Shown in pieces: positions 4,903-63,670 of a stretch of DNA of 64,000 bases. Positions within the stretch are counted from its first letter, which is position 1; each line of letters opens with the position of its first letter. The stretch is from positions 149,888-213,887 of the forward strand of contig BDDD01001667.1 in NCBI GenBank assembly GCA_001972305.1, written 5' to 3'. A program made the position numbers and the translations under genes. Source of the DNA: Cephalotus follicularis. Taxonomy: Eukaryota; Streptophyta; Magnoliopsida; Oxalidales; Cephalotaceae. Below the pieces are notes generated by a model. That model searched no databases and was not told the origin of the DNA. It saw only the letters and a program-made list of their open reading frames with translations.

Positions 4903-5116
4903 TGTAATATTTCATTTCTATGCTTATGTGTTTATAATTGTATGTTGTGTTTATGTCTTCTAATATATGCCATGGTTTTTGGACCCTTTGTTTTTATTTT
5001 GAATTGTGTTGTTTTTGTTTTCTGGGCGCTAAGTGTCAACGCCTTCATTAGAGACGTCGACGCCTTCATCAGACACGTCGACGCTTTGGCTTTGTGGAAC
5101 ACGTCAACGCCCATAG
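4903..5116 (+). repeat. 3' LTR of G1 copy a, first part
   Basis: The LTR starts with TGTAATATTTC after the polypurine tract. It is interrupted at 5116 by copia element C1; CATAG at 5112-5116 is repeated at 19641-19645 on the other side. The LTR continues from 19646. Confidence 0.9.
5035..5110. repeat. GTCGAC-core array 1 (G1 LTR, near its start)
   Basis: Four cores (GTCAAC 5035, GTCGAC 5056, GTCGAC 5077, GTCAAC 5103) lie 21, 21 and 26 bp apart. The array begins after TTTTCTGGGCGCTAAG, a leader nearly repeated before array 8 in the same LTR. Confidence 0.85.
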
Positions 5117-5947
5117 TGAAGGAAACAGACATACCGAGTCCAATGTCAGAAATGGACTTAGGTGTGTAGCGTGTAGAATAAAACTTAAACATACAATCAT
5201 GGCAGCGGAATAACACCCTATATAACAAAACAAGTCCATAATGACACGTCCACAGATCACATGGATCACCACAGCATCTACTGAATTGAATTGGAGTCAC
5301 CATTGCAAACAATGGTGACACACAAGCATGGCATAAAGAAGAAGGACCAAGAATTATACCAGTGGGTGTAGGCTCCTTCGTTCTTTGCTGCTACAAGCTT
5401 GAGTAGATTCCCTTTGATCTTCTCCAAGCCACAGGAACAGCAAGTACTCCAACCAGCATAAACAAAGTGTATGAACTCACTCACTCTCTAACTTAGCTTA
5501 GAAAAAGGTGTATTGATTTTGACCAATGAAGTCAATGATCAATTCACCCTAGATAAGCTCTTGCTTGGTGTATATTAAATAAAGAGAACACACAATCTGC
5601 AGAGAACTTTGAGTTCTTGCCCAGCAAAATGTCTCAACCTCTCTTTTCCATTTTCTACAGAAATGCTTATAACTATCCTACAATTCTCTCTCCAAATCTC
5701 CCATTCACTTAGGATCATGGCCTTCACTCCCTGGGAGTACGAAGCCATGATTCACACGTTTCTAAAACGTGTAGAATCTAAAGAAACCGGCTAAGGATGT
5801 GAGAGAAGTAGTGCCCACGAAGTGAGGTCGTGCACAGGTTGCACGTTCTGCTCAAAGACGTCGACGCCTTCCAAAGGACGTCGACGCCTATGCAACGTGG
5901 CACTGAAGCACGTCGATGCTTTCTAAAAGACATCGATGTCTTTATCA
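5117..5947 (-). repeat. C1 3' LTR, outer part
   Basis: Matches 17478 onward base for base with few differences. It stops at 5947, where a second LTR of another subfamily (TGATGGAATC) begins. Confidence 0.88.
5860..5940. repeat. GTCGAC-core array 2 (C1 LTR)
   Basis: Cores at 5860, 5880, 5912 and 5932 have spacings 20, 32 and 20 bp. C2 begins at 5948, directly at the edge of this array. Confidence 0.85.
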
Positions 5948-7544
5948 TGATGGAATCATACAAACCGATTCCAGTGCCAAAATGGACATAGGGTAGAAGG
6001 GTGTAGAATAAAACTTTAAACAAACAATCACGCAGTGGAATAACACCCTATATAACATAAACAAGTCCACAAAGACACGTCCACAGATCCCATGGATCAC
6101 CACAACATCAACAGAATTGAATTGGTGTCACCATTGCATCCAATGGTGACACACAAACATGGCAAGAAGAAGAGGGGCCAAAGGTTATACAAGAGGGTGA
6201 AGGCTCCTTCTTTCTTTGCCTCTACAAGCTTGAGTAGATTCCCTTGATGTTCTCCAAGTCTCAGTAACAACAAGCAATTCTTTCCAGCAAAAACCAAGAG
6301 CTAGAACTCACTCTCTCTCTCTCTTAGCTTAGAAAAGGAGTATTGATTGTGACCAATGAAGTCAGCAATCAATCCACCCTAGATAAGCCTTGCTTGGTGT
6401 ATATCAATTAAAGGGAACACACACTTGCAGAGAAGAATTCGTAGTCCAATTGCCCAGCAAAAGTGTCTCAACTCTCTTTTTATTTTTCTTTTCTGCAGAA
6501 AATGCTTAATACCAGCCACTAATTCTCTCTCCCAATCTCCCATTTACTTAGAATCATGGCCTTCACTCCCTTGGAGTCCGAAGCCATGATTCCCACGTTT
6601 CTAAAATGTGCAAGAACGGGAGCTGGATGCTGGAAACGAGGGAGAGATCGTGCCCACGATTTGAGCTCGTGCACAGGTTGCACGCTCTGCTCAAAGACGT
6701 CGACGCCTTCCAAAGGACGTCGACGCCTATGCATCGTGGCACAAAAGCACATCGATGCTTTCTAAAAGACATCGACGTCTTTATCAGGGATACGCATCGA
6801 TGTCTTTCTAAAAGACATCGACGCCTTCTAGCTAGCGAAGCACAAAGAGTCTAACTCCTTTAGTGATCTCGTGTATCCTTCGAATATTGGTTAAGTAGGA
6901 TTAAGCATGTGTGTTTCCACAAAATGCAAAATCCACACAACCGATACTTGACACCAAGACTTAATATGTCCAACATATTAAAGAACTGATCATTATAAGG
7001 CAGGGACCCTTTAAAATCTTGGTTAAAACGAGAGGTGTTGTCAAATTACCGAAATACCCATAGGGTTCGGTTTAGCCATTCTAAATAGTCCTCAACCATT
7101 TAAATGCTCTAGGAATAATATCTAATATTATCCAGATGGAAAATTAATCTAATTAATTTTCCCACACCTCATAACACAGATTTTCTAAGTCATCGGTTCG
7201 CGTGCACTATAATCCCTTGTCATGCTTGGCCCCGATTGAGGTCTAGGGTAAGGATATGTGTCAAATGCCCACAAAGTGAACCTATGACTTGGAACAAATT
7301 TGACATAAGGAGTAAGGTAACCAGTCTCACAGCCTCCATGCCAGGCATCCAACCTTATGTCAGGGCATCACTAGTATAAGTAGGCAATTATATAAACTAC
7401 TTCAATTATGTGATAAAATACAAGTGATATAGCCATAACCAATTTAGCATGTACCATATATATATAAGAATAAGATTGTTCCATACATGGTAACATATAA
7501 TATGACAACCCATCTAATGGCTTATCGGGTCACTATATCTAACA
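5948..7544 (-). repeat. C2 3' LTR
   Basis: Runs from TGATGGAATC to TATCTAACA and is followed on the right by ATCTCCCACTTG, the reverse complement of a polypurine tract. That makes it the 3' LTR of a minus-strand element. Confidence 0.85.
6699..6825. repeat. GTCGAC-core array 3 (C2 LTR)
   Basis: Cores at 6699, 6719, 6751, 6771, 6796 and 6817 have spacings 20, 32, 20, 25 and 21 bp. The sequence before it, TTGCACGCTCTGCTC, is shared with arrays 2, 5 and 7. Confidence 0.85.
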
Positions 7545-8150
7545 ATCTCCCACTTGACCCTCAAGCCATGAACTCCTATAGCCTAGACCCATCGTCCCAC
7601 GATGATGCTCCAGAGCCTTGGTGCCCATTGCCTTGGTCAGCGGATCTGCTGTGTTCTCCTCTGAGGAGACCCTCTCAAGCTGTATATCTCCCCTACCAAT
7701 AATCTCTCGGATTAAATGATAGCGCCGCTCGATGTGTTTGGATCGCTGGTGAGACCGTGGTTCCTTGGCTTGTGCTACAGCCCCATTATTATCACACTAT
7801 ACCACAACTGGACTAATAATGGATGGAACAACTCCTAGTTCAGTAATGAATTTGCGCATCCAAACACCCTCCTCGGCGGCGTTTGAGGCTGCTATGTACT
7901 CGGCTTCTGTGGTAGAATCTGCAATAGTCCCTTGCTTTGAACTGCGCCAGCTCACAGCTCCACCGTTAAGTACGAAAACGTACCCAGAGACAGATTTGTG
8001 ATCATCCGAATCACTATCAAAACTGGAGTCTGTGAAGCCCTCCAATTTCAGTTCACTATCCTTTCCATAAATCAAGAACATATCCTGAGTCCTTCTAAGG
8101 TACTTCAGGATTCCCTTGACCGCTTCCCAGTGTTTCTCACCACGATCAGA
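7545..8150 (-). pseudogene. Copia RNase H region, C2
   Basis: The minus-strand translation at 7797-8081 contains [40 protein letters not shown] and MRKFITELG, the standard C-terminal RNase H blocks of Ty1/copia polyproteins. The equivalent region of C1 (13240-13716) is closely similar. It removes the RNA strand during reverse transcription. Broken fossil. Confidence 0.85.
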
Positions 8151-10498: not shown

Positions 10499-11795
10499 TC
10501 TAGCAACCTAGATAAGGAAATATAAGTTGAGTCAGCATCTATTCCAGTTTTAATATATGACAACCATAACACTTGGTCTTTAGTGCTTATGGTTCCTCCC
10601 ACTATTCTAATCATATCCCATACCCCCATATGGAATTCGAGAAGTCCAACTTCCTAGTGGAGATTGGAATCCATCGCAATCATATTGTAGCCTCAGCTAA
10701 GGCATGACAAACTATAATATATCCAATGGGTAGGCTTTCTTGCCAATTTATATCCAATACAAGATCCAATCATCGTATTCGGCCTTAGATTCAATATGGC
10801 CTCAGCTAGGGCATGACAAACCATTAGAATCTTGATAAGTCAGGTACCCACAATTCTCATTGGAATGCACTAGTTTTAACACCCACACGTAGGCGTGTCC
10901 AAGGGCTAAAACATAGCCACCCTTTGCGGTGCCCAACACCGACGTTGACATAATATCCCAAAGTCATCAGCCTCAGCTAGGGCATGACAAACCAATAACC
11001 CAGGAACACTACTCAACGAACATCGTGGAAGGCCTCGGGGAACCACTCCATGGGTTCCTACGTTAAGACTTATTATTGAATCGAGGGAATTTGCGGTCTC
11101 ATATTTTAATTACCGAGCCATTAATTAATTCATTGGTTATATAAGCCAATTCCAATTAATTACGTCTTAGCATGCAAGACGAGTATCTTATGCACCTTGG
11201 ACATATTTATAAAATATGTCAATGGATTGGCCAGGACAATATTAGTAATGACTTGAGCCCAAAGTCACTACTAGGTCTTCCTAGGTGTAATGTTTTAAAT
11301 CTATTTATTACAACAGTAACCATGCATACATGGCCTTCAAAAGACTTGTACTTCATTTCTCCTTTCCTCCATCTCTCCTTGCAAGGTCTTCTTTTACAAA
11401 AAGAACATTACATTTTCGAAAAGAAAATTACATTTTAAAAATTACAAGGAGAAATAATAAAAGTAAGGAAAAATAAATGGTGCACGCAGGCACCTTATTA
11501 CAGACCTTTAAAGATAATAAATAAATAAAATCCATCCACACATAGAAAACAATAATCTAGGTCAAAGTCCTTTTCGGGCCATCCAATATGCATAAGATCT
11601 ATATTATATCCAATATAATAAAACCACAAATAAAACAAATGTCATAAATGATAACCAATTACATAATTTAATTCAATGATTGTTAATTGATCAAACTCCC
11701 ACAAAATCAAGCAATGATTTTTAATTTTCCAAGTGCCAAAATGTATAAAATCCAATTTTATACAAAAAACAATGTTTTTTTTATTTTATAAAAGA

Positions 11796-12032
11796 CGACG
11801 GCGCCTTACCAAAGGCATCGACGTGTTTTCTGGAAAAACATGAACAAGGCGTCGATGCAAAAAACAGAGCATCAATGCGTTTCACAAGAACAGTTGAAAA
11901 AGGCGTCGACGTCCACCAAGAACATCGACGCGTTTCACAAAAGATGATCCAGACATCGACGTCTATCAAGAACGTCGATGTCTAGCCTGGGAATTTGAAC
12001 ATGACATCGACGTCTTAACAAAGACGTCGACG
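11796..12032. repeat. GTCGAC-core array 4 (C2 leader)
   Basis: Cores near 11796, 11818, 11851, 11871, 11905, 11924, 11955, 11974, 12006 and 12026 give spacings 22, 33, 20, 34, 19, 31, 19, 32 and 20: pairs about 20 bp apart, with about 32 bp between pairs. Confidence 0.85.
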
Positions 12033-12321
12033 TCTATAGCCCCATGGGCATTTTATGTATTTCAAAAAATGCTGAAATCAATTGTTTAGACTATGGAATA
12101 CCATTCTGGCATTCCAAAATGCACTATGCATGTTCCAAACTTAATACTAAACACATTTAAACAACATTCCCAGCACAAAAACACAATGAAATCCAATTTC
12201 ATGTAAGTTTTATTAAGGCACTTAGAAAATTTAGTTTGATCACAAAACACATCCATTGATTAAACTATTAATCAGTACATCATCTAAGGCATACATATTC
12301 AATTAAGGATGATGTGGGACT

Positions 12322-12332
12322 CTCTGATACCA
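12322..12332 (-). promoter_or_regulatory. Primer-binding site, C2
   Basis: CTCTGATACCA is the reverse complement of TGGTATCAGAG and lies one base from the LTR beginning at 12334, fixing the 5' end of the minus-strand element. Confidence 0.85.
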
Positions 12333-12333
12333 C

Positions 12334-13239
12334 TGATGGAATCCTACAAACCGATTCCGGTGCCAAAATGGACATAGGGTAGAAGGGTGTAAAATAAAAC
12401 TTTAAACAAACAATCATGCAGCGGAATAACACCCTATATAACATAAACAAGTCCATAAAGACACATCCACAGATCCCATGGATGACCACAACATCAACAG
12501 AATTGAATTGGTGTCACCATTGCATCCAATGGTGACACACAAACATGGAAAGAAGAAGAGGGGCCAAAGGTTATACCAGTGGGTGAAGGCTCCTTCTTTA
12601 TTTGCCGCTACAAGCTTGAGTAGATTCCCTTGATGTTCTCCAAGTCTCAGGAACAGCAAGCAATCCTTTCCAGCAAAAACCAAGAGCTAGAACTCACACT
12701 CTTTCTCCCTTAGCTTAGAAAAGGAGTATTGATTATGACCAATGAAGTCAGTAATCAATCCACCCTAGATAAGCCTTGCTTAGTGTATATCAATTAAAGG
12801 GAGCACACACTTGCAGAGAAGAATTCGTAGTCCAATTGCCCAGCAAAAGTGTCTCAACTCTCTTTTTATTTTTCTTTTCTGCAGAAAATGCATAATACCA
12901 GCCACTAATTCTCTCTCCCAATCTCCCATTTACATAGAATCATGGCCTTCACTCCCGTGGAGTCCGAAGCAATGATTCCCACGTTTCTAAAATGTGCAAG
13001 AATGGGAGCTGGATGCTGGAAACGAGGGAGAGATCGTGCCCACAATTGGAGCTCGTGCACAGGTTGCACGTTCTGCTCAAAGACGTCGACGCCTTCCAAA
13101 GGACGTCGATGCCTATGCATCGTGGCACAAAAGCACATCGATGCTTTCTAAAAGACATCGACGTCTTTATCAGGGATACGCATCATAAGATATAATGTGA
13201 CAACCCATCTGAATACTTGTCGGGTCACTATATCTAACA
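12334..13239 (-). repeat. C2 5' LTR merging into the C1 LTR end
   Basis: Starts TGATGGAATC like the LTR at 5948. The last part, from about 13187 to TATCTAACA at 13239, resembles the end of the C1 LTR at 19590-19640 instead. This is the mixed boundary expected where C2 sits inside a C1 LTR. A reverse-complement polypurine tract follows from 13240. Confidence 0.75.
13085..13165. repeat. GTCGAC-core array 5 (C2 LTR)
   Basis: Cores at 13085, 13105, 13137 and 13157 have spacings 20, 32 and 20 bp, the same as array 2. Confidence 0.85.
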
Positions 13240-16161: not shown

Positions 16162-16993
16162 AATGTCCCCAAATCATCAGTTTCAGCTAGGGCATGACAA
16201 ACCAACAACCCAGGAGCACTACTCAACGAAAATTGTGGAAGGCCACGGGGAACCACTCCATGGGTTCCTACGTTAAGACTTATTATTGTAGTGAGGGAAT
16301 TTGCGGTCTCAAGTTTTAATTACCGTGCCATTAATTAATTCATTGGTTTTATTAGCCAATCCAAATAATTACGGCTTAGCATGCAAGACGAGTATCTTGT
16401 GCACCTTGGACATATTTTGAAAATATGTCAATGGATCTTGGCAAGGACATTATATGCAATGACTCGAGCCCAAAGTCATTCAAGGTATTCCTAGGTGTAA
16501 AGATTTAAATCTATTTATTACAACAATAACCATGCATACATGGCCTTCAAAAGCCTTGTACTCCATATCTCCTTTCTTCCATCTCTCCTTGCAAAGGCTT
16601 CTTTTACAAAAAGAACAATACATTTTCGAAAAGAAAATTACATTTTAAAAATTACATGGAGAAATATAAAAATAAGGAAAAATAAATAGTGCACGCAGGC
16701 ACCTTATTACAGACCTTTAAAGATAATAAATAAATTAAAATCCATCCACACATAGAAAACATAAAACTAGGTCAAAGTCCTTTTCGGGCCATCCATTGTG
16801 CATAAGATCTATATTATATCCAATATAATAAAACAACAAATGCCATAAATGATAACCAATTACACAATTTAATTCAATGATTATTAACTGAGCAAACTCC
16901 CACTAAATCAAGCAATGATTTTTAATCTTCCAAGTGCCAAAATGTATAAAATCCAATTTTATCAAAAATCAGTTTTTTTTTTAATTAAAAGAT

Positions 16994-17180
16994 GTCGACG
17001 CTTATATAAAGGCATCAACGTGTTTTCTGGAAATACATGAACAAGGCGTCGATGTTCATCCAGAACATCAAAGCGTTTCATGGAAATGATGAACAACGCA
17101 TTGACGTCTTTGAATAACGTCGACGCGTTTTCCAGAAACATGAACAAGACATCGACGTTTATCAAGAACGTCGACGTCTA
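16994..17180. repeat. GTCGAC-core array 6 (C1 leader)
   Basis: Cores near 16994, 17014, 17048, 17067, 17100, 17119, 17151 and 17170 have spacings 20, 34, 19, 33, 19, 32 and 19 bp. The pair-and-gap rhythm is the same as in array 4. Confidence 0.85.
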
Positions 17181-17477: not shown

Positions 17478-19640
17478 TGAAGGAAACGGACATACCGAGT
17501 CCAATGTCAGAAATGGACTTAGGTGTGTAAGGTGTAGAATAAAACTTAAACATACAATCATGGCAGCGGAATAACACCCTATATAACAAAACAAGTCCAT
17601 AATGACACGTCCACAGATCACATGGATCACCACAGCATCTAATGAATTGAATTGAAGTCACCATTGCAAACAATGGTGACACACAAGCATGGAATAAAGA
17701 AGAAGGACCAAAAAATATACCAGTAGGTATAGGCTACTTCGATCATTACCGCTACAAGCTTGAGTAGATTCCCTTTGATCTTCTCCAAGCCACAGGAACA
17801 GCAAGTAATCCAACCAGCATAAACAAAGTGAATGAACTCACTCACTCTCTCACTTAGCTTAGAAAAGGTGTATTGATTTTGACCAATGAAGTCAATGATC
17901 AATCCACCCTAGATAAGCTCTTGCTTGGTGTATATTAAATAAAGAGAACACACAATCTGCAGAGAACTTCGAGTTCTTGCCCAGTAAAATGTCTCAACCT
18001 CTCTTTTCCATTTTCTGCAGAAATGCTTATAACTAGCCTACAATTCTCTCTCCCAATCTCCCATTCACTTAGGATCATGGCCTTCACTCCCTGAGAGTCC
18101 GAAGCCATGATTCCCATGTTTCTAAAATGTGTAGAATCTAAAGAAACCATCTAAGGATGTGAGAGAAGTAGTGCCCACGAAGTGAGGTCGTGCATAGGTT
18201 ACACGTTCTGCTCAAAGACGTCGACGCCTTCCAAAGGACGACGACGCCTATGCAACGTGGCACTGAAGCACATCGATGCTTTCTAAAAGACATCGACGTC
18301 TTTATCAGAGAAAAGCATCGATGTCTTTCTAAAAGACATCGACGCCTTCTGGCCAGTCAAGCATAAATAGTCTAACTCTTTTAGTGATCTCATGTACCTT
18401 ACAAATATTGGTTAAGTAAGATCAAGCATATGTGTTTCCACGAAATACAAAATCCACACAACCGATATTTGACACCAACGCTTAATATGTCCAACATATT
18501 AAAGATCTAATCATTATAAGGCAGGGACCCCTTAAAATCTTGGTTAAAACGAGAGGTGTTCATAAATTACCGAAATACCCCTAGGGTTCAGTTTAGCCAT
18601 TCTAAATGGTCCTCGACCAATTTAAATGCTATTGGAATAATATCCAAATATTATCCATATGGAAAAATTAATCTAATTAATTTTCCCACAATTTATTACA
18701 CACCTCATTAACCCTATATTTGCTAAGTCGTCGGTTCGCGTGCACTATAATCCCTTGTCATACTTAGCCCCGATTAAGGTCTAGGGTAAGGATATGTGTC
18801 AACCTTAGATAGTACCTCAATGGTTAAAATATCTGATCATTACTAGGACCTTTGGTAAGCTCTCCGAAATCTAATTTCCAGTCAACCTCAACCTTGGCCA
18901 AGGACTTCATAAGTCCAAAGTATAATCAGACAATAATAGGGCCGATCACCTTCGCTCAGGTGTGATAATCCCTTATTGCGCACTCACTTATATTCATATA
19001 GATTCGATCATACCCAAAGACCACCCGATTGCCAGCCCTGCGCAAGGACTGGGTAAGGTGGAGATCAAAGCATAACCGTCTCCATACAATATATAGTAGT
19101 TACTCAGGTCTAAGAATCAGACGAGTTTAAGAACTCGCTAAGTGATCACCACTTATACACAACCGCAACAAGTAGGAGTCACTATTGACAAGAGAATAGC
19201 GACTCTCCGAATAGTGTCTCCTACGCGGGTCCTATTCAGTGTTCACGCTCCCAGCGCGGACCCCGTATTTGCCCTAGTGTCCAACACATATGGTAGTGAG
19301 AGAATCCATCCCCCGATTCCATGAGCAGGCAACATACGTGCAAGTCTATCCGGTTCACTAATGCCCACAAAGTGAACCTATGACTTGGAACAAGTTTAAC
19401 ATAAGGAATAAGGTAACCAATCTCACACCCTCCATGCTAGGCATCCAACCTTATGTCAGGGCATCACAAGTGTAAGCAGGTAAATGATAAACTACTTCAA
19501 TTAAGTGATAAAACACAAGTGTTATAGCCATAACATAATTAGCATGCATCATATATTTACAAGGAATAAGATTGTTTCATATATGATAAGATATAATGTG
19601 ACAACCCATCTGATGGCTTGTCGGGTCACTATATATAACA
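17478..19640 (-). repeat. C1 5' LTR
   Basis: A 2,163-bp LTR running TGAAGGAAAC to TATATAACA. The CATAG duplication follows at 19641-19645. Compared with the C2 LTR it carries about 550 extra bases (roughly 18800-19355), a subfamily length difference. Confidence 0.9.
18220..18346. repeat. GTCGAC-core array 7 (C1 LTR)
   Basis: Cores at 18220, 18240, 18272, 18292, 18317 and 18338 have spacings 20, 32, 20, 25 and 21 bp, identical to array 3 in the C2 LTR. Confidence 0.85.
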
Positions 19641-19645: not shown

Positions 19646-22087
19646 TCGTGACATCATCACGTATGGATGGTGGCTTTGTGGAATACGATCACACCGCCAC
19701 GCTTAAGTCGGTTTTCCTTATCTGTTTGGACGGTGGCTTTGTATGGAAGAAGAGATTCTTGCCATTTCTATTGATCCGATTTTCCTTCTCTGATAGAGTC
19801 TATATCTGCATATAAGGAAATCATTTAGTCACATGATTTTTCCATTAGTTTTACACGTTTTTGTTGTTTTAAAAACTTATCTCTACATTTCTTGAAAAAC
19901 CATATGCATTTTTATCAAACCAGAGGAACACCTTTGTCACTATCATTCTTGATCGATTTTGGCATCTTTTGAAGGTATTTTCTAAATGAAAGTTATAGTT
20001 TTCACTACATAGTTTCAATATCAATCAATAATTGGTATTAAAAACCGGTTAGAATTTATCTTTCAGCATGATTGTAGAGGCTTATTGGAAATAAAATTCT
20101 ATTGTTATTTTTAATTTGTTTATCCATGGGATTTTTATGCATAACTTGCTATACTGATATTTGAAGCAAAGAAACCATGTTATAGACATATATATGTCAC
20201 TATTTTATGATTTATGCATAGAAAAATCAGATTGTAGTTCTTAATTTGTAAACTGCAATATTCCAGAAAATATATCTTCAAGTTGCTATTCATATTGGTA
20301 CCTTGCATTTTATATCATCATGTATTGATATACGTATATAATGATGTTTACAAACTCATAAACCATGTTTCAGAACCTGCATTTTGCCGTTTGTAACTTG
20401 CGTTTATAAATTTGAAGTGTTATGCATGGTTTTCAATTGATTTTCTGCAACTGGTTTTGTGTTCTGGGTGTTAAGCGTCGATGCCTATTGTAAGCGTCGA
20501 TGCATGTGTGTCTAAATTTTTTTGTAAAATGCCATGCATGTGTTTAAACGTCAACGCTTTTGTCTATACACCGACGCTTATGTCGTGTTTTGCTGTTTGA
20601 TTCTTCGACGTTTTGTTCAGTGTTTTTGTCATTGCTATGTCAAAACCGTCGACGCCTATGTTAAGCACCAATGCTTTTGACATGCACGTTGACGCTTCTG
20701 TTCGCACGTCGATGCTTTATTCTTGCAGTTTGATATTTTTTTTTCATATGTTATGGTAATGCTTGGATTAATCTGATTAGGGTATTGATATCATCCGTTG
20801 TGGAGATTAGGATACTTCTTGTTAGCTTTTGTTATGTATTCGGGTTTGTTTAGTTTTCGATCTGCTAAGGTACAAATATTTCTCGTTTCTTGGTTACTCT
20901 TTGATTTTATTGAATTGGATTTGTCATTGTCGGATACTCGATTTTATTTGAATAAAATATGTTTCATTACTAAGATTAATATTACTGATTTTTATAGTCT
21001 GTACATGATTTTCACTATCGAAAATATGTTAAATGAACATGGCTTTCACTTTTGGGAGTATGTTAAATTTCGGATATGAAAGTATGTTGGTGATACTTAC
21101 TAAATAATTTCAGATATGTCTCGAGACAGTATACATATGTATGTTTTAAAATGTTTTAGAAAAAGCAATGTTTTAGCATAATTACATACAGAGAAAAACT
21201 TACTTATGAGCAATGTTTTAGAAAAAGCAATGTTTTAGCATAATTTCAGATAGTCTGTACATATGCATGTTCCTTTGGCACGGAGGACATGACACCTACC
21301 GTGACGGTGTGATCGGTCTACGGCTTCTCTTTATATATGTATCCTGAGAGTAGGGTATGGATCCTTTTGAGGCGTATGAGTTAAGTCTAGCTATTATCAG
21401 ATTCAGATTTAGATTCAGAGGAATTATTGTGTAGTGTCGTACACGTCTTTCCGTCAGAGCATGTGGGCCTCGCGAACCCCTTGCATTTATATATATGTAC
21501 ATCAGATTCTCTGTTATGGAATTATGAAATCAAATAAAGTTTTGAATTATGACTTATGATACTATACTTTTCGGAAAGTTAGGAAAATTTTATAACTGTT
21601 TTATTTGAATATTCTACTTTACATTATAAACAATATTTAATCGTATTATTTGTTGATTTTAGAATTAAGATATTTGTTTATCTTTTACATGTCCGTTTAC
21701 TGTTTTATATTCCTTATCTGTACTGAGGTTTGCTCAACCGCGTTTTTGTTTCCATACGGTAAGTTTTCAGGAGCATCGGGGAAATGTGTGAGAGAGGTAT
21801 CCACCTTGTGTCCGAGGATCACCTAGGAATTCATCCTATTTTGTTTACGTTGTTTCATGGTCATGTTTAGGCCAGTCATTTGAACAATGTTAAGATTTTG
21901 GTTTATGTTTTTAGATTATGGTTTTGAAATTTGTTAAGTAAAGATATCAGACTATGTTTATGTTCAGTTATGATATGTCTTAGACCATCACGTTTTTGTA
22001 TAAAGATAATATTTCAGTTTTATGATCTGTTATGTTTAAGTTCTGTGATCGTATATGTAAGGGCTCCCACCTTTGGGGGTGTTACAA
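19646..22087 (+). repeat. 3' LTR of G1 copy a, second part
   Basis: Resumes after the CATAG duplication and ends GGTGTTACA at 22087. With 4903-5116 the LTR is about 2.65 kb. It contains TACTGAGGTTTGCTCAACCG near 21720, a block shared with the other G1 LTRs. The 20-kb mark is AT-rich with no gene. Confidence 0.9.
20470..20715. repeat. GTCGAC-core array 8 (G1 LTR, second array)
   Basis: About nine cores of the forms GCGTCGATGC, CGTCAACGC, CGTCGACGCC and CGTTGACGC, looser than the others. It begins after TTTTGTGTTCTGGGTGTTAA, near-identical to the leader of array 1. It ends about 1.37 kb from the LTR end. Confidence 0.8.
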
Positions 22088-41848: not shown

Positions 41849-41851
41849 GAG

Positions 41852-47832: not shown

Positions 47833-48150
47833 GTCGATGTCTATTAAAAGGTGTCGATGCCTTTCTCCATCAACGTTGATGTACAGGTCCTTAGTGTCTG
47901 GGCGTTCTACTGCTAAAGACATCGATGTCCATCTTTTACGCATCGACGCTCAAGGTCTGGAACCTTAAAACGTCAGTGTATTGCTTATGGCGTCGACGCG
48001 TTAGGGTAGGAACCCTAAGCGTCGACGTGTAATACGTCAAAACCTAAACATGTGGCCTAAGGCATCGATGTCTTTCTATAGACGTCGATCTGTTTCACAT
48101 CAGTAACCGAGAAATAACCCAAAGACGTCGATATTTATTAAAAGGCGTCA
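47833..48150. repeat. GTCGAC-core array 17 (G2 copy b 3' LTR)
   Basis: Cores near 47833, 47853, 47875, 47921, 47942, 47972, 47992 and 48021, then three more by 48150. Spacings are mostly 20-22 and 29-30 bp. Almost the same as array 19 in the other LTR. Confidence 0.85.
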
Positions 48151-48931
48151 ACGATTATCGTGTAGCAGTCGTCTTCTTCCTCACAACTTAACGGACAGTA
48201 GCCATTTAAACCATATATATGCAAGACAACATCAAATCAAGGCAGGAAACCAACATGCAGATACATATTACATATCTAGCATAACATGGCATTAATCCAG
48301 TGAGCAAAATCAATTCAATACTCATGAAATTTATACACCAAAACATAACCCATGCATGAACGTTAATCTCAGAATTAATGTTATGGCTTTCCCCTACCTC
48401 TTGTTCCAAGTTAGGAACTGGAAAGTCCACCTCTTTGCGTTCCAAACTGGTCACAGCAGCCCCTCCAGGTCCGTCCCGTTGCTGCTAGCCCACAAGCTCC
48501 AACTACCAAGCTCCAAATTGCTTCAACCATGGTAGTTTAGGTCTCTCTCTCCTTAAGTTTTTGTTTTCTTACCGTCACTGTGTTTTCCTCTTCCTTATTT
48601 TCTCCTCCTTCATTTTTGGCAGAGAAGGGTGTTTTATGTTGGTTGGAGTTTGTTTCCTTCTGCTCCAACGCCAGAATCCCCACTTCTTCACACCCTCCCC
48701 ACACCTGGGTGCATGGCGCACCAAGTGTCTCCCTTTTGCTGCCAAGGCCCATGCATGCCCTCACATGCCTTCCCATTTCTGCCATTTCAGTCCTAGCAAT
48801 GTAGGGTACCATATTGCATGCTCAACATGTCTTGATTTTGATGTTAAAATGCATGGATAAAGCCCCCCCCCCCCCCCCCATTGCATGTTATTCTGTCAGC
48901 AGAGTAACGTGCCTGACATTCGATATCTACG

Positions 48932-49085
48932 CATCGATGTCTTCTTCAAAGACGTCGACATCTTTTCCCCCTTTACACGAGGGCGTCGATGTCCTTTCCT
49001 ACATCGACATGCATGTGCATGCAGTTACGTGCGCCCCTTTGCTTCAAGGACGTCGATGTGTTTCTAAAGGCATCGACGCGTTTCC
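48932..49085. repeat. GTCGAC-core array 18 (G2 copy b 3' LTR, near its start)
   Basis: Cores GCATCGATGTC, GACGTCGACATC, GCGTCGATGTC, ACATCGACATG, GACGTCGATGTG and GCATCGACGCG. Confidence 0.85.
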
Positions 49086-53209: not shown

Positions 53210-54418
53210 CTCCGTCACGCCCCCGTTAATCAAGAAGACAACATTAAAATGGTAAGGCAATTAACACATAAATACAACTCATGTGAAAACCATAAAATTT
53301 AAACTTTTAAGCAATATGTCAGTTGCGGAAGCATAAAAATTCATAAGCTATAAACTCATAGCGTGCATCCCATACTACACGCAACCCAAAACAAGTCCGT
53401 CATTGTTAATCACCCACAAATGGACCGTGATCACAGTATAATATTAAATCCATCATTAACATCACCATAAGTATAGTACATCAGAAATCCTTTAACGAAG
53501 CAAATTATTACAAACAGGAGAACAAATAAACTAAGAACAACATAACAACTTCGTTCTTCGTCCATGCCAGTCCAATCGGTCCACTGCATCAATCTGTAAA
53601 GTAGGGGGTTAGTCTTTGTCCTCACTCGGCTAAGTCATAACGTAGCTCGGGATCAACATTAATTTCATGTCATGTAATATATGTATAAATGATGCAGTGC
53701 AGGAAATACCAGTTTATATATATGAGAAATATATATATTTAACAGTACAGTAAAATAACAGTGGATACATATATAGGAAAATATGTATGCAAGAACAGCA
53801 CAGTAGTGATCCGGCCAGGATCACATCCACAATCACAGTAATGTCCATCATGGACCAACAGGCAGTATAGTATGTCCATAAGAGGACCACAACAGTCAGG
53901 CAATTCATGCTCCTGGCCCCTAGGTCAACCCTACCACTAGCCAGGGCTGGCAACCTCCGCCATGCAACTAGTGGCTCAAGCACAAACACATAGAAATTCA
54001 CAGAGCAACTAGTGAATCAAAAATTAAATAGTGCAATAACAGTACAGTAGTGATCGATTAGATCGACAACAGGCAGTTCATTTTCAAATATTTCTGAGAG
54101 TAGTAAATATTTGAAATAAGTATTTTCAGTGGTAAAAGTAATTTTTGAACAACTCAGTAGTGTAAATCATTTCCCAGTTCATTCAAAAATACGTTATTAA
54201 TCCATACATATTTTCATACTCAAAACAGCACATTCCGAGTTCACATATGCATTTCTAAATATCATAACTTTAGAAATCACAAACGATTTACAAACAGTAA
54301 CCAAACAGGCAGTAAAAAGTGTATATGCGATGCATATAAATGCTCAAATGCACCCTAACAGGAATCGGGATAGTTTCGCATCGTTAGATGAGGAAACCTT
54401 CAAACAGTACCAAAAGAC

Positions 54419-54748
54419 GTCGATGTCTATTAAAAGGGATCGATGTCTTTGTCCATCAACGTCGATGTACAAGTCCTTAGTGTCAGCGTGTTCTACTGCT
54501 AAAGACGTCGATGTCCATCTTTTACGCATCGACGCTCAAGGTCTGGAACCTTAAAACGTCAGCGTATTGCTTATGGTGTCGACGAGTTAGGGTAGGAACC
54601 CTAGGCGTCGACGTGTAATACGTCAAAACCCAAACAGGTGGCCTAAGGCATCGATGTCTTTCTATATACGTTGATCTGTTTCACATCAGTAACCAAGCAA
54701 TAACCCAAAGAAGTCGATGTTTATTAAAAGGCGTCGACGTTTATCGTG
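54419..54748. repeat. GTCGAC-core array 19 (G2 copy b 5' LTR)
   Basis: The counterpart of array 17. Many of the differences between the two are C/T or G/A at CG positions of the core. Confidence 0.85.
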
Positions 54749-55506
54749 TAGCAGTCGTCTTCTTCCTCACAACTTAACAGGCAATAGCCATTTCAACCAT
54801 ATACATGCAAGATAGCATGAAATCAAGGTAGGAAACCAACATGCAGATACATATTACATATCTAGCATATCATGGCATTAATCCAGTGAGCAAAATCAAT
54901 TCAATACTCATGCAATTTATACACCAAAACATAACCCATGCATGAACGTTAATCTCAGAATTATAGTTATGGCTTTCCCCTACCTCTTGTTCCAAGTTAG
55001 GAACTGGAAAGTCCACCTATTTGTGTTCCAAACTGGTCACAGCATCCCCTCCACATCCGTCCTGTTGCTGCTATCCCACAAGCTCTAAGTCCCAAGCTCC
55101 AAATTGCTTCAACAATGGTAGTTTTGGTCTCTCTCTCCTTAAGTTTCTGTTTTCTTACCCTCACTGTGTTTTCCTTCTTCTTATTTTCTCCTCCTTCATT
55201 TTTGGCAGAGAAGGGTGATTTATGTTGGTTGGAGTTTGTTTCCTTCTGCACCAATGCCAGAATCCCCACTTCTTCACACCCTCCCCACACCTGCGTGCAT
55301 GGCACACCAGGTGTCTCCCTTTTGCTTCCACGGCCCATGCATGCCCTCACATGCCTTCCCATTTCTTCCATTTCGGTCCTAGCAGTGTAGGGTACCATAT
55401 TGCATGCTCAACACGTTTTGATTTGCATGTTAAAATGCATGGATAAAGCCCCCCCTTTGCATGTTATTCTGTCAGCAGAGTAACGTGCCTGACATTCGAT
55501 ATCTAC

Positions 55507-55662
55507 GCATCGACGTCTTCTTCAAAGACGTTGACATTTTTTTTCCCCTTTACACGAGGGTGTCGATGTCCTTTCCTGTATCGACGTGCATGTGGATGCG
55601 ATTACGTGCGCCCCTTTGCTTCAAGGACATCGATGTGTTTCTAAAGGAGTCGACGCGTTTCC
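55507..55662. repeat. GTCGAC-core array 20 (G2 copy b 5' LTR, near its start)
   Basis: The counterpart of array 18: GCATCGACGTC, GACGTTGACAT, GTGTCGATGTC, TATCGACGTG, GACATCGATGTG and GAGTCGACGCG. Confidence 0.85.
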
Positions 55663-55675: not shown

Positions 55676-57982
55676 AGCATGTAATGTAAAACAGACATAT
55701 GTCTTTGCATGGCATGTAAAACAGAGCAGTGGCAGCCTAAACGTGTCATGCATGATAGATGTATGCCATCAGGTGTACAACATGCAAGAGTGGTGACTTG
55801 CATGTGCTCTATTCCATCTGCAAACCTACAACCTGCAAAACATAAGAGAAAAGAGTGAGAAGAGGTGCATGTGAGAGAGAGAAGAGAAAAGTGGGAACCT
55901 TGAGTTATGACTAGAACTGGTCACTGGATCCACGAGTTCTATATATCAGTGTTGCATGAGTGTTCAGAGAGGTTAGTAATCGTCTGGAGAGAAGAGTTCA
56001 ACCACTGGATTGATTGTGCATGTTAGTTGGGGTTCCAAGTGGAGTTAGAAGCTTGAATTTAAGAGGTAAGCTTCTGCATGATTTCAAATGTGTTATAATC
56101 GTTAAATAGGTATATATGTACTGATTGTGTACTATATATATCTCCTGTTAACAAGCACATAGAGTTTAATTGCTGGAATTGGGGTTCAGTTGATATAAGG
56201 TTGGAACTCAAAAGGAAGTTTGAGGCTTAGGAATCCCTGGTAAGTTGTTGGTTTAATTTAGTGTTGATATGGTAGTTAGGCAACCATGTTCGGTTACTGA
56301 TTTTCGTTGCATATACATGTTAACATGCACCTATAGCATTAAACGTCTGTATTGTTGGTGTTGAGTGAAGTTGGAACTCAAGGAGAAGAATCAATCAAAT
56401 TTGATTCTGGGATAGCACTTGAGGCAGGGGTTTTTACATGTTTTAGAAGATATGATATGTATAGCATGTCTGGATAATTTCTCTGTGATTGCGTGTTATT
56501 ATTTTGGTTTGAATTGGAAGTTGAACGTGCATACTATGTTTTGGTTAAACCACTGCCTGACGTTTCTGCACAAAAACAATCGACTGTTGAACCTAACAGT
56601 CGACTGTTCAATGTAACCAGCCGACTGTTAGGGACAAACAGTCGACTGCTTAATGAAAACAGCTGGCTATTCTTATGAACAGGCGACTGTTAAGCGGCAA
56701 ATTATAGATATTAGTTGCTGTTAGGCTTTAAATTGTATGCAATTACCCTGGTCTCCTCATGGGATGATTGTAACAGTCAATCCTGGTCTTATGTAGTTAC
56801 ATTACAGAAAGTAAACAACTTATGCACTCCTTGTGAGAGTTGTGGAAGAACGACTAGGGTTTACTAACATCTTTTTTGAACCCTTGAATTGTGTTTGTTC
56901 CGCTGCTGCTTAATGATGCTGTATAGATCTTGTATAGCTATGAAGTGTTCATAATTAATATTGTTATACTTAATATTAATGATTGAACCAACTAGTTCTA
57001 TAAGCACAAATATGGATTTTCTTCTGATTGTTTTCAAAATGAAAACTTATTGTCAAATGATTTACTAATTTTCCTCCATTGAGAGGCACAACCACTGTAT
57101 TGAATATCGTTTCCTCCAACGAGAGGTACGGTTACTGAACTGTTAAATGTTTCCAAAACAAACCACTACTATATTGCATATTATAGATATATGTAATATT
57201 GCTATTGAATTGATTGAATTATTTGTCTATGTTATTGCCATTAGTCGAGTGATAGGAGACATCACTGGCTACGGGGTGGTCCTATGTGCCAGGAGTTGGC
57301 TAGAGCTTCCACCACACTTATCTGCAATGCAGAGCCTGATTGTTACTTGGCCGCTAAATACTGGCATAATTGATCTGATCTATCATCTTCGGAGAGTAGG
57401 GTGATGGTTAGGTGGTGCACAGTTGGTGCTAGGAGTTAGCGACATGTGACACCCAAACCACTGTATTGATTGATTTTACCCTTGTGCGGTATTCTTGAAT
57501 TGTATTGCTATGGCCACTTGGCATGATTTCTTATATATATTGGAATACTTATTACATATAATATTCAAAATAATTGTCATACATGTTTACATTTGTATAT
57601 TCTTTCTCATGCTTTATTCGTACTTAGCCAAGTGAGGACAACCGCTAACCCCTTACAATTTCAGATTAAGTGAAGGCGTTCGGGGAAGTGCTGCTGAAGC
57701 TTATTAGAGAGCTTCTATTTTGTTAAGGTTGTTATTCACTATGTTTTGTATTGAAATGAACGATCATACTCCGTTGTTTTTTTACATTTCCAATATGTAA
57801 AAGGATAATTGTTAGTATTGTATAAGCACGTAGTATGGGCTGCGTGCGGATAATTTTTATAATCCGGCAATGAAATGCTTCTGCTTATGTTAATGAAATT
57901 TTGTTTACTGTTGAATGTTGGATTATCATTATTATAACTAGTATCTCCAAATATGTTGTCTTTTTGGAAAATGGGGTGGACA
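55676..57982 (+). repeat. LTR of X family (G2-like), plus strand
   Basis: Ends TTTTTGGAAAATGGGGTGGACA, which resembles the G2 LTR end. It contains CTTAGCCAAGTGAGGACAAC near 57626 and a GA-rich tract at 55840-55895. It corresponds, inverted, to 26724-28684. The left end is undefined. The open frame at 57147-57404 is not supported as a gene. Confidence 0.7.
56579..56692. repeat. CAGTCGACTG-type array 21 (X LTR)
   Basis: Cores with CGACTG at 56581, 56601, 56622, 56643 and 56684, and a decayed one near 56664. Spacings are 20, 21, 21, about 21 and 20. A CCCAGAATCAA-type flank lies about 170 bp upstream here and at the matching distance from array 10 in the inverted X LTR. Confidence 0.87.
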
Positions 57983-59976: not shown

Positions 59977-60063
59977 GGAAGTCTTCAGCCGCCTTGGTTT
60001 TGTCATTTTCTGACACGTGTCTTCTTCTTTCGTCCGTTTCTTGACATGCATCCTTTTTCTTAA

Positions 60064-60345
60064 AGCGTCGGCGGTTAAGCGCTAAGCGTCACCGCTTAAG
60101 CCCCAAAGTACTGCCGCTTTTCCCTCTAAGCGCTGCCTGTTGACGTGTAACAAAGGAAAATTAACGCTTGAAAGCGTCGTCGCTTTCTCCATTACACTAT
60201 AACAAATTGTCGACGCTTTAACTCACAAATTTGGTAACCAGAAAAGAAGCCAAACTGTCGACGCCTTAAAATAACTGTCGACGCTTAATGGAATTTCACC
60301 AAACTATCGACGCTTTAAAATAGGCAGTTGACGCTTTCAATGTTC
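60064..60345. repeat. GTCGAC-core array 22 (G3 solo LTR)
   Basis: About nine cores: AGCGTCGGCGG, AGCGTCACCGC, AGCGTCGTCGC, TTGTCGACGC, CTGTCGACGCC (60257), CTGTCGACGC (60277), CTATCGACGC (60306) and CAGTTGACGC (60327). Spacings in the last four are 20, 29 and 21. It lies upstream of the TATA box in the LTR sense. Confidence 0.83.
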
Positions 60346-60985: not shown

Positions 60986-62785
60986 TGTAACACCCCCGAT
61001 TCAAAACTGGGAACACCACCGATTTGGGATCGGGATGTCACACAAAACTGAACTATAGAAACATGTCAAAATATCTTAATCTTTATTTAAATCATCAAAT
61101 TTAGTTAAACTATCTTTCATTAAGAATCCTGAAGCTGTAAATCCAAAACATTACGATAAACATAAAACCTTAAATAATATTCAAATTCAAACCTAAGCTG
61201 AAGTCTCAAAAATATCTGAAGGTCCACACATGACCACAACATCACTAAAAGAAAAGAATTCAACTTATTAGAACTCCTCAAGACATAGGTGTTGCTCTCA
61301 TCACACTTTCCCCTGATTCCTCTGAATACCTGCCGCATCGAAAACAAAAACGCGGTTGAGCAAACCTCAGTACAGATATAGAATAATAAAACAGTTTATG
61401 AACAAAACAGTTTACGAAACATAATAGTACGCTATTTTTTCAAAAACAGAACAATTCATAAATAAACCAAATTTATGCAATTCAATGGTGCTCATGTCAA
61501 ATATATATATATATATATCTGTTCACAAACTTTCATATCTGTTTCCATAACTTTTCATGACGGTGGTTCATACTGAGATATGCAATACGGTTTAAATACA
61601 TTTATATATATGCAAGGGATCCTGCAGAATCAACATGGCCGACGGAACGACATGTACGGCACTACACAATGAATTCCCATATCCGAATCAGAACAGAACA
61701 TATTTTTCCTAGGGCCGACCCATGCGCCTCTATCAAAAATGGGATCCAAATCCTATTAACAGGATATAAAAACCAGTGAGAGACACCGTAGACTGATTAC
61801 AGCGCTACGGATAGTGTCATGTCCCCGTGCCAGGCTTGCGACATGCCTATGGTACCCCAATAGATGGTTATATTCTAAGTAGTAACAATTTCAAAGTAAT
61901 GACTATATCAAAAATTATTTCAAAATATTGATTTACTCCAAAACCAATTCAAATCATAAACGGTTTTTCTGAACATTTTCCGAACATATCCGAAATCATT
62001 ACCATATCCGTATTATCAAAAGTCAACATACTTTTATAATTGAAAATTGTACTCATTGAATTTCACAAATAATTAAAAGAGATGATAATAGTAAAATCCG
62101 TATTTTATTCATATAAATTAGAATACGAAAATCAAAATAAAAGATCAATACATCTTTCATAAAATAATGTTTAAAACAATAGAGGTATCCATGAAAATCC
62201 GTACTAAAAGAAAAACTGAATTCATTTCAATAAAAACATAGGAAAGATCCACGAGCGAAGAATCCATACTTATTTCACCAAAAGCAAAAACTAAACTTTT
62301 CTAATAAAATCGTGAAGATAACCAAGAACGAGAAAATCCATACATTATTCATAAAAACATAAATGTGATTTCTTTCAATAAAATCACTGGAATATAATCA
62401 AGAACGAAACATCTGTACATTGCTTATAAACGGAATTTATTGTAACAAAATCATAGGGTGATAACCAAGGAAGAAAAATCCATACATGTTCATAAAAGCA
62501 AAACTGAATTTAATTTAATAAAATAAAGTGCAGATAGCCAAGAATGAACGTATCCGTACAACATTCATGAAACAAAACTAAATTTATTTCAATAAAATCG
62601 AATGATGATAATCAAACATGACGAATCCGTACCTTAGCCGCCCAAATCTAAACAATCACAACAACGAATCTAAAGCATACGCGGAATCACTCTAACCTTC
62701 ACCACAGATGTTTTGGAATCCAAAGCAGATAAACCAAACCATGTTACAAACTATCAGACACATATTACAATTTCCAGGAGGATAA

Positions 62786-63070
62786 GCGTCGACGTATACG
62801 ACCTGAGCGTCGATGTTTACAACATAAGCGTCCACTCTAAAACATGGCGTTGGCAAAAATCATGACTAAGCGTCGAGGAAAAGATGATAGTTCATGACAT
62901 GCACGCCGACGTCTAAACAAAGTGTTGACGCTTATCATCAATGCGTTGACATGAAACCAAAATAGTCGACGCTTTGACACAAGCAGCACGATGAAAAATA
63001 ATTTTCTATGCATAGACGTCGACGTATACGACATAGGCATCCATGCTATGGGTTAAAAACATGAAAACGC
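62786..63070. repeat. GTCGAC-core array 23 (G1 copy c LTR)
   Basis: Cores at 62788, 62809, 62830, 62849, 62872, 62905, 62924, 62945 and 62965 have spacings 21, 21, 19, 23, 33, 19, 21 and 20; further cores lie near 63018 and 63068. Confidence 0.87.
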
Positions 63071-63537
63071 ATCGATACAACAATTACAGTATGAACAAAA
63101 ATCCATTTTCTTAAACTTAAATCATTAAAACAGTAATATGCATGTTCTAAAACATGACTTCTATTATTGAAAATACCATTATAACATTTCAAATGCATAA
63201 ACATATTGATTACCTCTAGAATATAGCAATAGAAATTCTTCAAAACATATTTTCTGGTATTGCATAATTTAAAACAGGTTTTATAGATTAACAGTGGATT
63301 TTAGAATAATCTATAACTTGATAGTCAACAATAATAGTAATATATGATGGTAAAAAGCGACAGAGTTTTAAAGAGAGAAATTGTAAGTTTTGATGGTGAA
63401 AGCGTGTAGGATTAAAGCTTACCATATCAACAGAAAATGAGGCAAACATAGAAGGAAACAAATAACCGGATTATGGAAAGAAAATCCCACTTTCCCTACA
63501 AAGCCACCAACTACTTTCAGATAAGGAAGATGGGTGT

Positions 63538-63670
63538 AAGCGTCAATGTTATTTAAAGCTTTAACGCCTAACCCTTCGCATACAAAGGCATAGACGTTAT
63601 GACAGAGCGTTGACACTTTCACTACTGGAAGAAAAATGAGAAATAATGCTAAGGCGTCAACGCTTAACAC
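63538..63670. repeat. GTCGAC-core array 24 (G1 copy c LTR, near its start)
   Basis: GCGTCAATG, GCATAGACG, GCGTTGACAC and GCGTCAACGC. On the minus strand the array follows TTCTGGGTGTTAAGCGTTG, the same leader as arrays 1 and 8 in G1 copy a. Confidence 0.78.

Follow-up and report, generated by a model that had tools for sequence, protein, structure and literature searches.

The window, by which we mean the whole 64-kb stretch of DNA analysed, contains arrays of short palindromes which, where they can be assigned, lie in the LTRs or leaders of Ty1/copia and gypsy chromovirus elements. Type I arrays repeat a discrete palindrome of 16 bp, WAAGCGTCGACGCTTW, beyond whose edges information is close to zero; its 14-mer core is AAGCGTCGACGCTT and a subtype reads GACGTCGACGTC. 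A second class of array, type II, is built from the palindrome AACAGTCGACTGTT, and the core of both is GTCGAC. A preliminary description of this DNA had counted at least two dozen palindrome clusters, and the learned matrices bear this out, calling 144 type I sites that form 22 arrays and 16 type II sites that form 2 arrays. These features are as follows (arrays have no strand).

5030..5113, type I array, 4 sites, between the copia LTR block and the end of a gypsy integrase
5855..5942, type I array, 4 sites, inside the neighbouring partial copia LTR (5117-5947)
5948..7544, minus strand, Ty1/copia LTR (TGTTAGATATAG...TCCATCA), left of a tandem LTR-internal-LTR-internal-LTR block (repeats, copia domains; boundaries by eye)
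6694..6827, type I array, 6 sites, within the left copia LTR, ~718-851 nt into it
11792..12036, type I array, 10 sites, copia leader, ~296-540 nt past the primer-binding site
13080..13167, type I array, 4 sites, middle copia LTR
16989..17180, type I array, 7 sites, leader of the second copia copy
18215..18348, type I array, 6 sites, right copia LTR
20472..20718, type I array, 8 sites
25431..25643, type II array (CAG[T/C]CG[A/G]CTG), 9 sites
27438..27622, type I array, 8 sites
28373..28507, type I array, 3 sites
29193..29439, type I array, 8 sites, flank common to loci L017 and L024, whose gypsy signals are of non-chromovirus type
31614..31760, type I array, 6 sites, gypsy LTR starting near 33150 (minus strand), ~1391-1537 nt from its start
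31959..32045, type I array, 4 sites, same LTR, ~1106-1192 nt from its start
32804..32957, type I array, 5 sites, same LTR, ~194-347 nt from its start
40397..41850, plus strand, gypsy chromovirus-type LTR (TGTAACGCCCGA...), ending right before the primer-site word at 41852 (boundaries by eye)
40568..40700, type I array, 4 sites, in LTR 40397-41850, ~172-304 nt from its start
47828..48157, type I array, 10 sites, gypsy LTR starting near 49262 (minus strand), 481-810 nt downstream of the TATA-like box
48928..49082, type I array, 5 sites, same LTR, 290-444 nt upstream of the TATA-like box at 48638
54414..54743, type I array, 10 sites, in the partner of the LTR that starts near 49262
55504..55659, type I array, 5 sites, same partner LTR
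56574..56692, type II array (AACAGTCGACTGTT), 6 sites
60062..60337, type I array, 9 sites
62783..63049, type I array, 8 sites, with a flank that bears a distant resemblance to copia locus L006
63537..63666, type I array, 5 sites

Placement in an LTR or leader applies to the 24 window arrays other than the one at 5030, which lies between two elements, the type I arrays at 20472, 27438, 28373, 29193, 60062, 62783 and 63537, and both type II arrays. The LTR location given in the preliminary description was read directly for copia, whose block carries minus-strand primer-site words at 12332 and 17476, and for three gypsy chromovirus-type LTRs; the Athila/Tat-like assignment, at L017, rests on weaker signs, and there are likewise weaker indications that TGGCGCC-primer gypsy elements carry arrays. 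RVT_1, Tf2-1-like SH3 and chromodomain integrase matches lie near the arrays of the gypsy carriers. Detected coding-domain matches, spanning 30,461 of the 264,000 bp scanned, overlap none of 57 arrays and 6 of 450 single sites. The arrays are found both upstream and downstream of the presumed promoter: in two gypsy LTRs the TATA-like sequence CATAAAACACC follows them (it stands at 40996, 296-428 nt beyond array 40568..40700), and other arrays lie downstream of a TATA-like box, the start site being presumed in each case. One LTR of the 47-49 kb gypsy element holds 15 sites, and other LTRs have fewer, such as the 4 in LTR 40397-41850.

To ask how far composition could account for these arrays is to compare them with shuffled and reversed words. 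Exact words are scarce in the window (GTCGAC 46, GCGTCGACGC 3 and GACGTCGACGTC 2), and decayed copies of the palindrome are plentiful. With the degenerate word AARRCRTCGAYGYYTT, a match of at least 13/16 and a cluster defined as 3 or more sites, the window holds 119 sites, 112 of them within 21 clusters. Fifty local-Markov shuffles of the window gave a mean of 7.5 sites (maximum 16) and no cluster; similarly, 200 permuted palindromes gave a mean of 7.3 sites (maximum 23) and at most one cluster, and none reached the observed value. Shuffles scanned with the learned matrices yielded almost no arrays. Because the matrices scanned the very sequences that had served to train them, exact genome-wide counts provide an independent test: there are 18,108 copies of AAGCGTCGACGCTT and 15 of its reversed form, 9,879 against 204 for GACGTCGACGTC, and 4,236 against 7 for paired GCGTCGACGC. 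Together, the shuffles and the genome-wide reversed-word controls lead us to reject an origin by chance or composition. Twenty haphazardly placed 10-kb stretches contained 24 type I and 9 type II arrays, with at least one array in 13 of the 20; these counts, like those of the window, leave out loci L001-L004.

Neighbouring sites keep a characteristic distance. After removal of pairs with spacer identity above 60% (304 raw type I spacings reduced to 225, 82 raw type II spacings to 74), the centres of type I neighbours are 19-22 bp apart, about two helical turns, in 118 of 225 cases, with 8 spacings of 23-27 bp, 34 of 28-34 bp and none of 35-40 bp. Type II neighbours obey the same spacing (55/74). 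Genome-wide, among the first 50 pairs of each type in the matches listed, 41 of type I (10-40 bp allowed) and 35 of type II (12-38 bp allowed) are spaced at 19-22 bp, as counted by hand with homologous copies retained. The best period is 11.4 for type I (p ~0.006 against jitter) and 11.1 for type II (p 0.09). Support for strict 10.5-bp multiples past the first two peaks is modest, as is periodicity past the first peak, and strict helical phasing is therefore unproven.

The preliminary description held that spacers differ between clusters, and this extends to the inside of single arrays, where spacers are nearly unrelated: after de-duplication, spacer similarity is 0.303 within one array (n=430 pairs) and 0.263 between arrays. 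This small difference bears on whether the arrays are minisatellites, 21-bp tandem repeats grown by slippage. TRF does find short tandem stretches of 20-21 bp, and site number differs among some copies with near-identical flanks, so slippage may contribute locally; as a full account we reject it, since among de-duplicated sites the spacer is not copied with the site, and we regard slippage as the origin of the arrays as extremely improbable. Very recent local duplications are under-counted in this comparison because de-duplication drops near-identical repeat units.

The sites are also better conserved than the DNA between them. Among 65 directed pairs (restricted to alignments 250 columns or longer, with identity no higher than 88% and 48 or more aligned site bases), sites were more conserved than spacers in 61 of 65 non-independent comparisons, into which the overlap of L002 and L003 enters as a duplication; L027 is the L020 locus itself. 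Pooled conservation at non-CpG positions was 0.846 in sites against 0.746, and CpG conservation 0.915 inside sites against 0.808 in flanks; for non-CpG site positions against flanks the mean difference was only 0.016, with sites ahead in 40 of 65 pairs. Within a site, mirrored positions 4-6 covary weakly (p 0.002-0.02) and mirrored positions ±1 to ±3 do not (p 0.16-0.92), and adjacent sites covary at positions 5-6. We read this covariation as reflecting family-specific variants, because at most of positions 5-6 the same-position (tandem) test gives a signal of equal or greater strength. The same test weighs against a function at the level of RNA, in which adjacent self-complementary copies would form hairpins, dimerise the RNA or feed small-RNA production. 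Palindromes 20-21 bp apart could pair with a short loop, some arrays lie in the leader or downstream of the presumed start site, and positions -6 and +5 of adjacent sites covary in the hairpin sense. However, the inner mirrored positions show no such pairing signal, other arrays lie upstream of the presumed promoter, and the spacings of 30-32 bp would leave long loops; we consider an RNA-level role very unlikely.

A at position 5 is favoured in copia C1 (0.51) and in the gypsy family at 47-56 kb (0.59), and G at that position in the gypsy LTR at 31-33 kb (0.80), L015 (0.64) and L020 (0.84); superfamily, copia or gypsy, does not dictate the motif subtype. Nor is the separation of types I and II absolute: 11 sites are called by both matrices, and the type II array of L002 passes also as a small type I array by way of three doubly called sites. 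A third class, AAGAAGTCGACTTCTT, hinted at by L024, was dropped, its 14-mer core giving 0 perfect pairs genome-wide, and in the sample and with the filter used no pile-up of further palindromes at a 20-21 bp pitch appeared besides types I and II.

Type II arrays occupy places equivalent to those of type I in related gypsy LTRs. Near-identical LTR copies (up to 99.5% over 213-214 bp) carry a type I array in one case and a type II array in another, the change falling at the array edge; in such swap pairs flank identity is 96-99.5% and the array differs from its edge onward, and in 6 of the 8 swapped copies read, type I sites lie just past the type II block. Mean flank identity between a mainly type I family and a type II family is 88%. 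LTR subfamilies have thus traded modules, the junctions falling at the array edge, and recombination therefore contributes, so that the repeated gain proposed in the preliminary description is only part of the history. With sites masked, the 50 array entries (48 distinct places, because L002 and L003 overlap) fall into 10 flank groups; the earlier statement that the lineages have no LTR sequence in common accords with this grouping and has to be qualified for the gypsy families, which have short LTR segments in common. These exchanges also speak for the possibility that one ancestral array was spread by template switching or recombination and is now selfish or neutral, decayed and diversified, since both the edge changes and the flank identity across types indicate that modules move. 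However, with sites masked, the comparison of the copia C1 arrays with the main gypsy group turned up no match in spacer or flank. Furthermore, neutrality predicts neither the conservation of sites, CpGs included, above spacers nor a pitch kept despite nearly unrelated spacers. Such a transfer would account for the spread of the arrays but not for their maintenance, and as a complete explanation we find it decidedly unlikely.

Host transcription-factor sites in LTRs are known to drive transcription in the ONSEN heat elements, in Tnt1 (BII box) and in Tto1 (repeats), with few sites, one family each and known factors. The arrays here would resemble these in providing LTR sites for a host factor; among such stress-responsive elements we know of no motif common across superfamilies. 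In maize, a Sirevirus study (Genome Research 2016) reportedly placed palindromic structures in the LTR cis-region of one copia lineage. Among the matches listed in open-licence PMC full text, a corpus outside which most subscription papers lie, we found no description of arrays common to copia and gypsy. The nearest known parallel is the repeated-motif (RM) boxes of Ty1/copia Sireviruses, which are reported to be palindromic, CpG-bearing and clustered in the LTR upstream of the TATA box, with at least 8 motif copies in each RM-bearing element (PMC2829016). The arrays described here are likewise a palindrome repeated in the LTR, with at least 8 copies per element (15 in the gypsy 47-49 kb LTR, 10 in the copia leader). 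According to the same paper, some eudicot RMs are TCGA-centred (Vitis CGGTCGACCG, Tnd-1 ACAATCGATTGT), 12 of 13 published RMs carry a CGG-CCG signature, Tnd-1 being the exception, and RM boxes are Sirevirus-specific and missing from classic elements (Bousios et al. 2010; PMC2829016). In contrast to RM boxes as described there, one motif is here common to copia and gypsy LTRs, many carriers being gypsy rather than Ty1/copia Sirevirus; the arrays are GTCGAC-centred, lack the CGG-CCG signature and have a fixed 20-21 bp pitch; and they come in two interchangeable classes, some lying downstream of the presumed promoter.

The preliminary description had instead named VANC proteins as the closest parallel, which we find a looser one than the RM boxes. 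In the published account, the VANC target YAGTATTAY is non-palindromic, occurs in one orientation and multiplies by tandem duplication, and VANC is specific to one DNA-transposon family, VANDAL, and encoded by the element (Hosaka et al. 2017; PMC5735166). A further mark of VANC targets is that they lose DNA methylation when bound. Both systems have clustered short motifs in transposon noncoding DNA, in sets that vary between related elements, whereas the sites here are dyad-symmetric, at a fixed pitch and separated by nearly unrelated spacers. A VANC-like anti-silencing or transposase-type protein from another element could nevertheless bind the arrays and be exploited by unrelated LTR elements, the two classes then answering to its diverged relatives. 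Two specificities coexisting at the same pitch and in equivalent positions would suit such a protein, as would an array turnover that resembles the reported VANC-target dynamics (PMC5735166). The preliminary description saw no encoded factor, and our frame-by-frame check of the array-bearing gypsy element L022 agrees: frames of at least 90 aa outside gag-pol gave no Pfam family match, which would fit a protein supplied by another element or by the host. The VANC domain DUF1985 (PF09331) had 0 matches in the genome, but control genomes were equally silent. Given the direct repeats of VANC targets on one side and the palindromes on the other, we hold an element-encoded factor to be unlikely.

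In the explanation that we favour as probable, each array is a modular platform bound by dimeric DNA-binding proteins that act in trans and most likely come from the host. The pattern fits a binding-site array, as first proposed, and by their domains (copia RT/INT, gypsy RT and chromodomain integrase) the carriers are unrelated. We infer protein binding, dimerisation, cooperativity, a host origin and an effect on transcription or silencing. A putative symmetric dimer would sit on each 16-bp palindrome, and adjacent dimers, separated by two or sometimes three helical turns, would face the same side of the DNA and may bind cooperatively. Arrays on either side of the LTR promoter would raise transcription or block LTR silencing in cells that make the protein. 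Two or more specificities would exist side by side, type I (AAGCGTCGACGCTT, subtype GACGTCGACGTC) and type II (AACAGTCGACTGTT), and LTR families would gain, lose and swap array modules with module positions kept. A CBF/DREB-like core, RYCGAC, may point to the putative array-binding factor, a suggestion that we offer as speculation. More tentatively, the arrays may amount to a shared regulatory code, in which unrelated LTR lineages depend on a few host proteins reading palindromic arrays of fixed pitch and switch between at least two such codes by cassette swap in an evolutionary contest over transcription and escape from silencing.

To our knowledge, how plant LTR retrotransposons are transcribed despite silencing is understood for few families only. 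The type II class, the 20-21 bp pitch and the arrays on both sides of the presumed promoter are new relative to the preliminary description. One 16-bp word recurs in the LTRs of unrelated lineages under a strict grammar, and a second word can be swapped in for it. Because this word is abundant and its grammar strict, the putative protein should be directly fishable by affinity methods, and the natural swap pairs, with near-identical flanks and different arrays, are ready-made comparisons.

The window consists of LTR retrotransposons nested in one another, namely Ty1/copia copies arranged in tandem on the minus strand (domains RVT_2, integrase and gag_2) and several gypsy elements in which RVP_2 and RVT_1 were detected. 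According to Pfam, one of the gypsy elements carries a Tf2-1-like SH3 and chromodomain, and others match the same integrase end by tblastn. The clusters of GTCGAC-core palindromes reported here in the preliminary description are real: a degenerate palindrome gave 119 sites, 112 of them in 21 clusters, against a mean of 7.5 sites and no clusters in local shuffles of the window, and none of 200 permuted palindromes matched the observed value. When a matrix for this palindrome (type I) was applied to the window and 20 haphazardly placed 10-kb stretches, it called 340 sites and 46 arrays; the corresponding averages were 48 and 0.2 in 10 shuffles, and 46.5 and 0.4 (at most 4 arrays) with 20 column-permuted matrices. 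At least one array was present in 13 of the 20 haphazard stretches, where arrays occupied 6,539 of 200,000 bp. This matrix and that for type II, a second palindrome class, were trained on the sequences scanned, and exact counts across the whole genome (1.577-Gb assembly, 9,746 contigs) serve as the independent test. AAGCGTCGACGCTT occurs 18,108 times against 15 for the reversed word, GACGTCGACGTC 9,879 times against 204, and paired GCGTCGACGC 4,236 times against 7.

The type I unit is a 16-bp dyad, WAAGCGTCGACGCTTW, with information falling to about zero beyond ±8. After de-duplication, 118 of 225 distances between neighbouring centres measured 19-22 bp, mostly 20-21; spacings of 23-27 bp (8 cases) and 28-34 bp (34 cases) also occurred, and none fell at 35-40 bp. 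Similarly, among the first 50 pairs in the genome-wide listing (10-40 bp allowed, homologous copies included), 41 were at 19-22 bp by hand count. De-duplicated spacers are barely more alike within one array (identity 0.303) than between arrays (0.263), which rules out a repeat unit copied by slippage as the main account. Comparison of homologous arrays no more than 88% identical (65 directed, non-independent pairs) gave identities of 0.864 for sites, 0.753 for spacers and 0.836 for flanks. At non-CpG positions sites exceeded spacers in 61 of these 65 non-independent pairs and flanks in just 40; this margin over flanks is slight, so the contrast between sites and flanks rests mainly on CpGs, whose identity was 0.915 inside sites versus 0.808 in flanks. 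CpGs, if methylated, are expected to decay fastest.

Type II comprises AACAGTCGACTGTT and GCCGAC-bearing variants, and its arrays share the type I pitch. Its matrix called 105 sites and 11 arrays, compared with 20.5 and 0 in shuffles and 23.6 and 0 with permuted matrices, and paired ACAGTCGACTGT occurs 1,425 times genome-wide versus 7 for the control. De-duplicated neighbours were 19-22 bp apart in 55 of 74 cases, as were 35 of the first 50 pairs listed (counted by hand), with a further 12 at 30-31 bp. Two arrays lie in the window:

25431-25643, type II array
56574-56692, type II array

No separate type I site was found inside, or within 60 bp of, 12 type II arrays; 11 sites overall scored with both matrices, including three in the array of L002 (L-numbers denote other loci from this genome). 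Asymmetric type II cores, GCCGAC or GTCGGC, are common (44 of 104 sites, for example at L020 5932-6424), and the symmetric double-C form falls below the independence expectation (6 observed versus 15). No further palindrome piled up at 20-21 bp pitch in the sample. A suspected third class, a variant in L024, was rejected, there being no perfect AGAAGTCGACTTCT pairs genome-wide; the array concerned (L024 1142-1277, with a GTCGACTTC-like variant) has a flank related to those of type I arrays at window position 29193 and in L017.

The arrays lie outside detected coding domains: none of 57 arrays and 6 of 450 single sites overlapped detected coding-domain matches, which span 30,461 of the 264,000 bp scanned. 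All LTR starts given here were read by eye from the printed sequence. In three window gypsy LTRs (starts near 40397, 49262 and 33150), the first array falls within about 172-347 nt of the start; the latter two bear additional arrays at about 1106-1537 nt, and the LTR starting at 40397 has no second, downstream array. L022, a gypsy element, resembles these LTRs in layout and uses type II in place of type I: its arrays lie about 172-256 and 1334-1452 nt from the LTR start (near 5761). The TATA-like CATAAAACACC was found near arrays in only two LTRs: at 48638, between arrays at -444..-290 and +481..+810, and at 40996, with an array upstream at -428..-296, both with putative start sites. In copia, one array lies within the LTR and another in the leader, about 296-540 nt downstream of the primer-binding site:

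6694-6827, array inside the copia LTR at 5948-7544

L017 combines a gypsy-type gag with the primer-site word TGGCGCC; upstream of this word, at 190-1860 bp, lie three smaller arrays of 3, 4 and 4 sites, a candidate LTR placement. Carriers include both copia and gypsy, in agreement with the claim that unrelated lineages share the word.

Once the sites had been masked, comparison of flanks sorted 50 array entries, representing 48 places, into 10 groups, and copia C1 arrays showed no flank match to the main gypsy group at the thresholds used. Motif subtype crosses superfamilies, A being favoured at position 5 in copia C1 (0.51) and the gypsy 47-56 kb family (0.59), and G in gypsy 31-33 kb, L015 and L020. 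The L020 type II flank is 84% identical to the L015 type I flank up to the array edge, with no convincing match beyond. When the L015 flank was compared with the genome, the best 40 matches stopped at one of two places, query 219-221 (27 matches) or 214-215 (13); type I arrays (9-13 sites) followed in 8 of 8 checked of the longer matches (one being L015 itself) and type II arrays (8-15 sites) in 8 of 8 checked of the shorter. Loci with the L020 flank had type II arrays in 12 of 12 (one being L020 itself). Furthermore, over 213-214 bp L047 and L048 (type II) are 99.5% identical to L050 (type I); to L049, another type I copy with this flank, they are 97.2% and 96.3% identical, respectively. Past the array edge, identity in their best matches drops to 70-74% for about 1 kb, with L048 reaching 79% further on. 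Such copies therefore look like recombinant LTRs with the junction at the array edge, and this apparent recombination between LTR subfamilies, judging by the L047, L048 and L050 sequences, is recent. A few type I sites lie beyond the type II block in 6 of 8 swapped copies, so mixed arrays exist. The proposal that no single repeat had been copied by homology holds for the near-unrelated spacers and the unmatched copia C1 and gypsy flanks, but array modules do move between LTRs. In the L015-flank orientation the 99.5%-identical segments are L047 1-213, L048 1-214 and L050 1-214, and the LTR bodies are about 70-79% identical.

Site symmetry, site length and two-turn pitch would suit a dimeric protein binding each site, with neighbours two turns apart bound cooperatively on one DNA face. 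In L022, Pfam assigns the sense frames from 1340 to 5719 to pieces of gag, RNase H and integrase, and the domain models find protease, reverse transcriptase and RNase H; no other scanned frame of at least 90 aa matched Pfam. In this single gypsy element, then, there is no extra recognised gene. Together with the sharing of the word by copia and gypsy, this points to a putative array-binding protein that would act in trans and is probably host-encoded. Two words under one grammar point to two related putative proteins, or one with two modes, and arrays flanking the presumed promoter would suit activation or protection from silencing.

According to PMC2829016, the TATA box of Sirevirus LTRs is preceded by palindromic repeated-motif boxes, which are termed Sirevirus-specific and contain CGG-CCG in all but one; those of Vitis (CGGTCGACCG) and Tnd-1 (ACAATCGATTGT) have a TCGA centre, as do the present words. 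VANC targets, as described in PMC5735166, are same-orientation motifs often within tandem repeats, whereas the present sites are palindromes with near-unrelated spacers. As portrayed there, neither system has one word common to copia and gypsy together with a fixed pitch and swappable classes; palindrome arrays in LTRs are as such a known kind.

The copia block (5948-19640, minus strand) is ordered LTR-internal-LTR-internal-LTR with an extra partial LTR at 5117-5947, which suggests unequal or template-switch recombination between copies. At 44166-44700, in a gypsy internal region directly past the protease domain, lie dense CGATA / CGATAACGATACG tandem repeats with a 40-bp unit in 6.3 copies and additional periods of 5, 16 and 80 bp.
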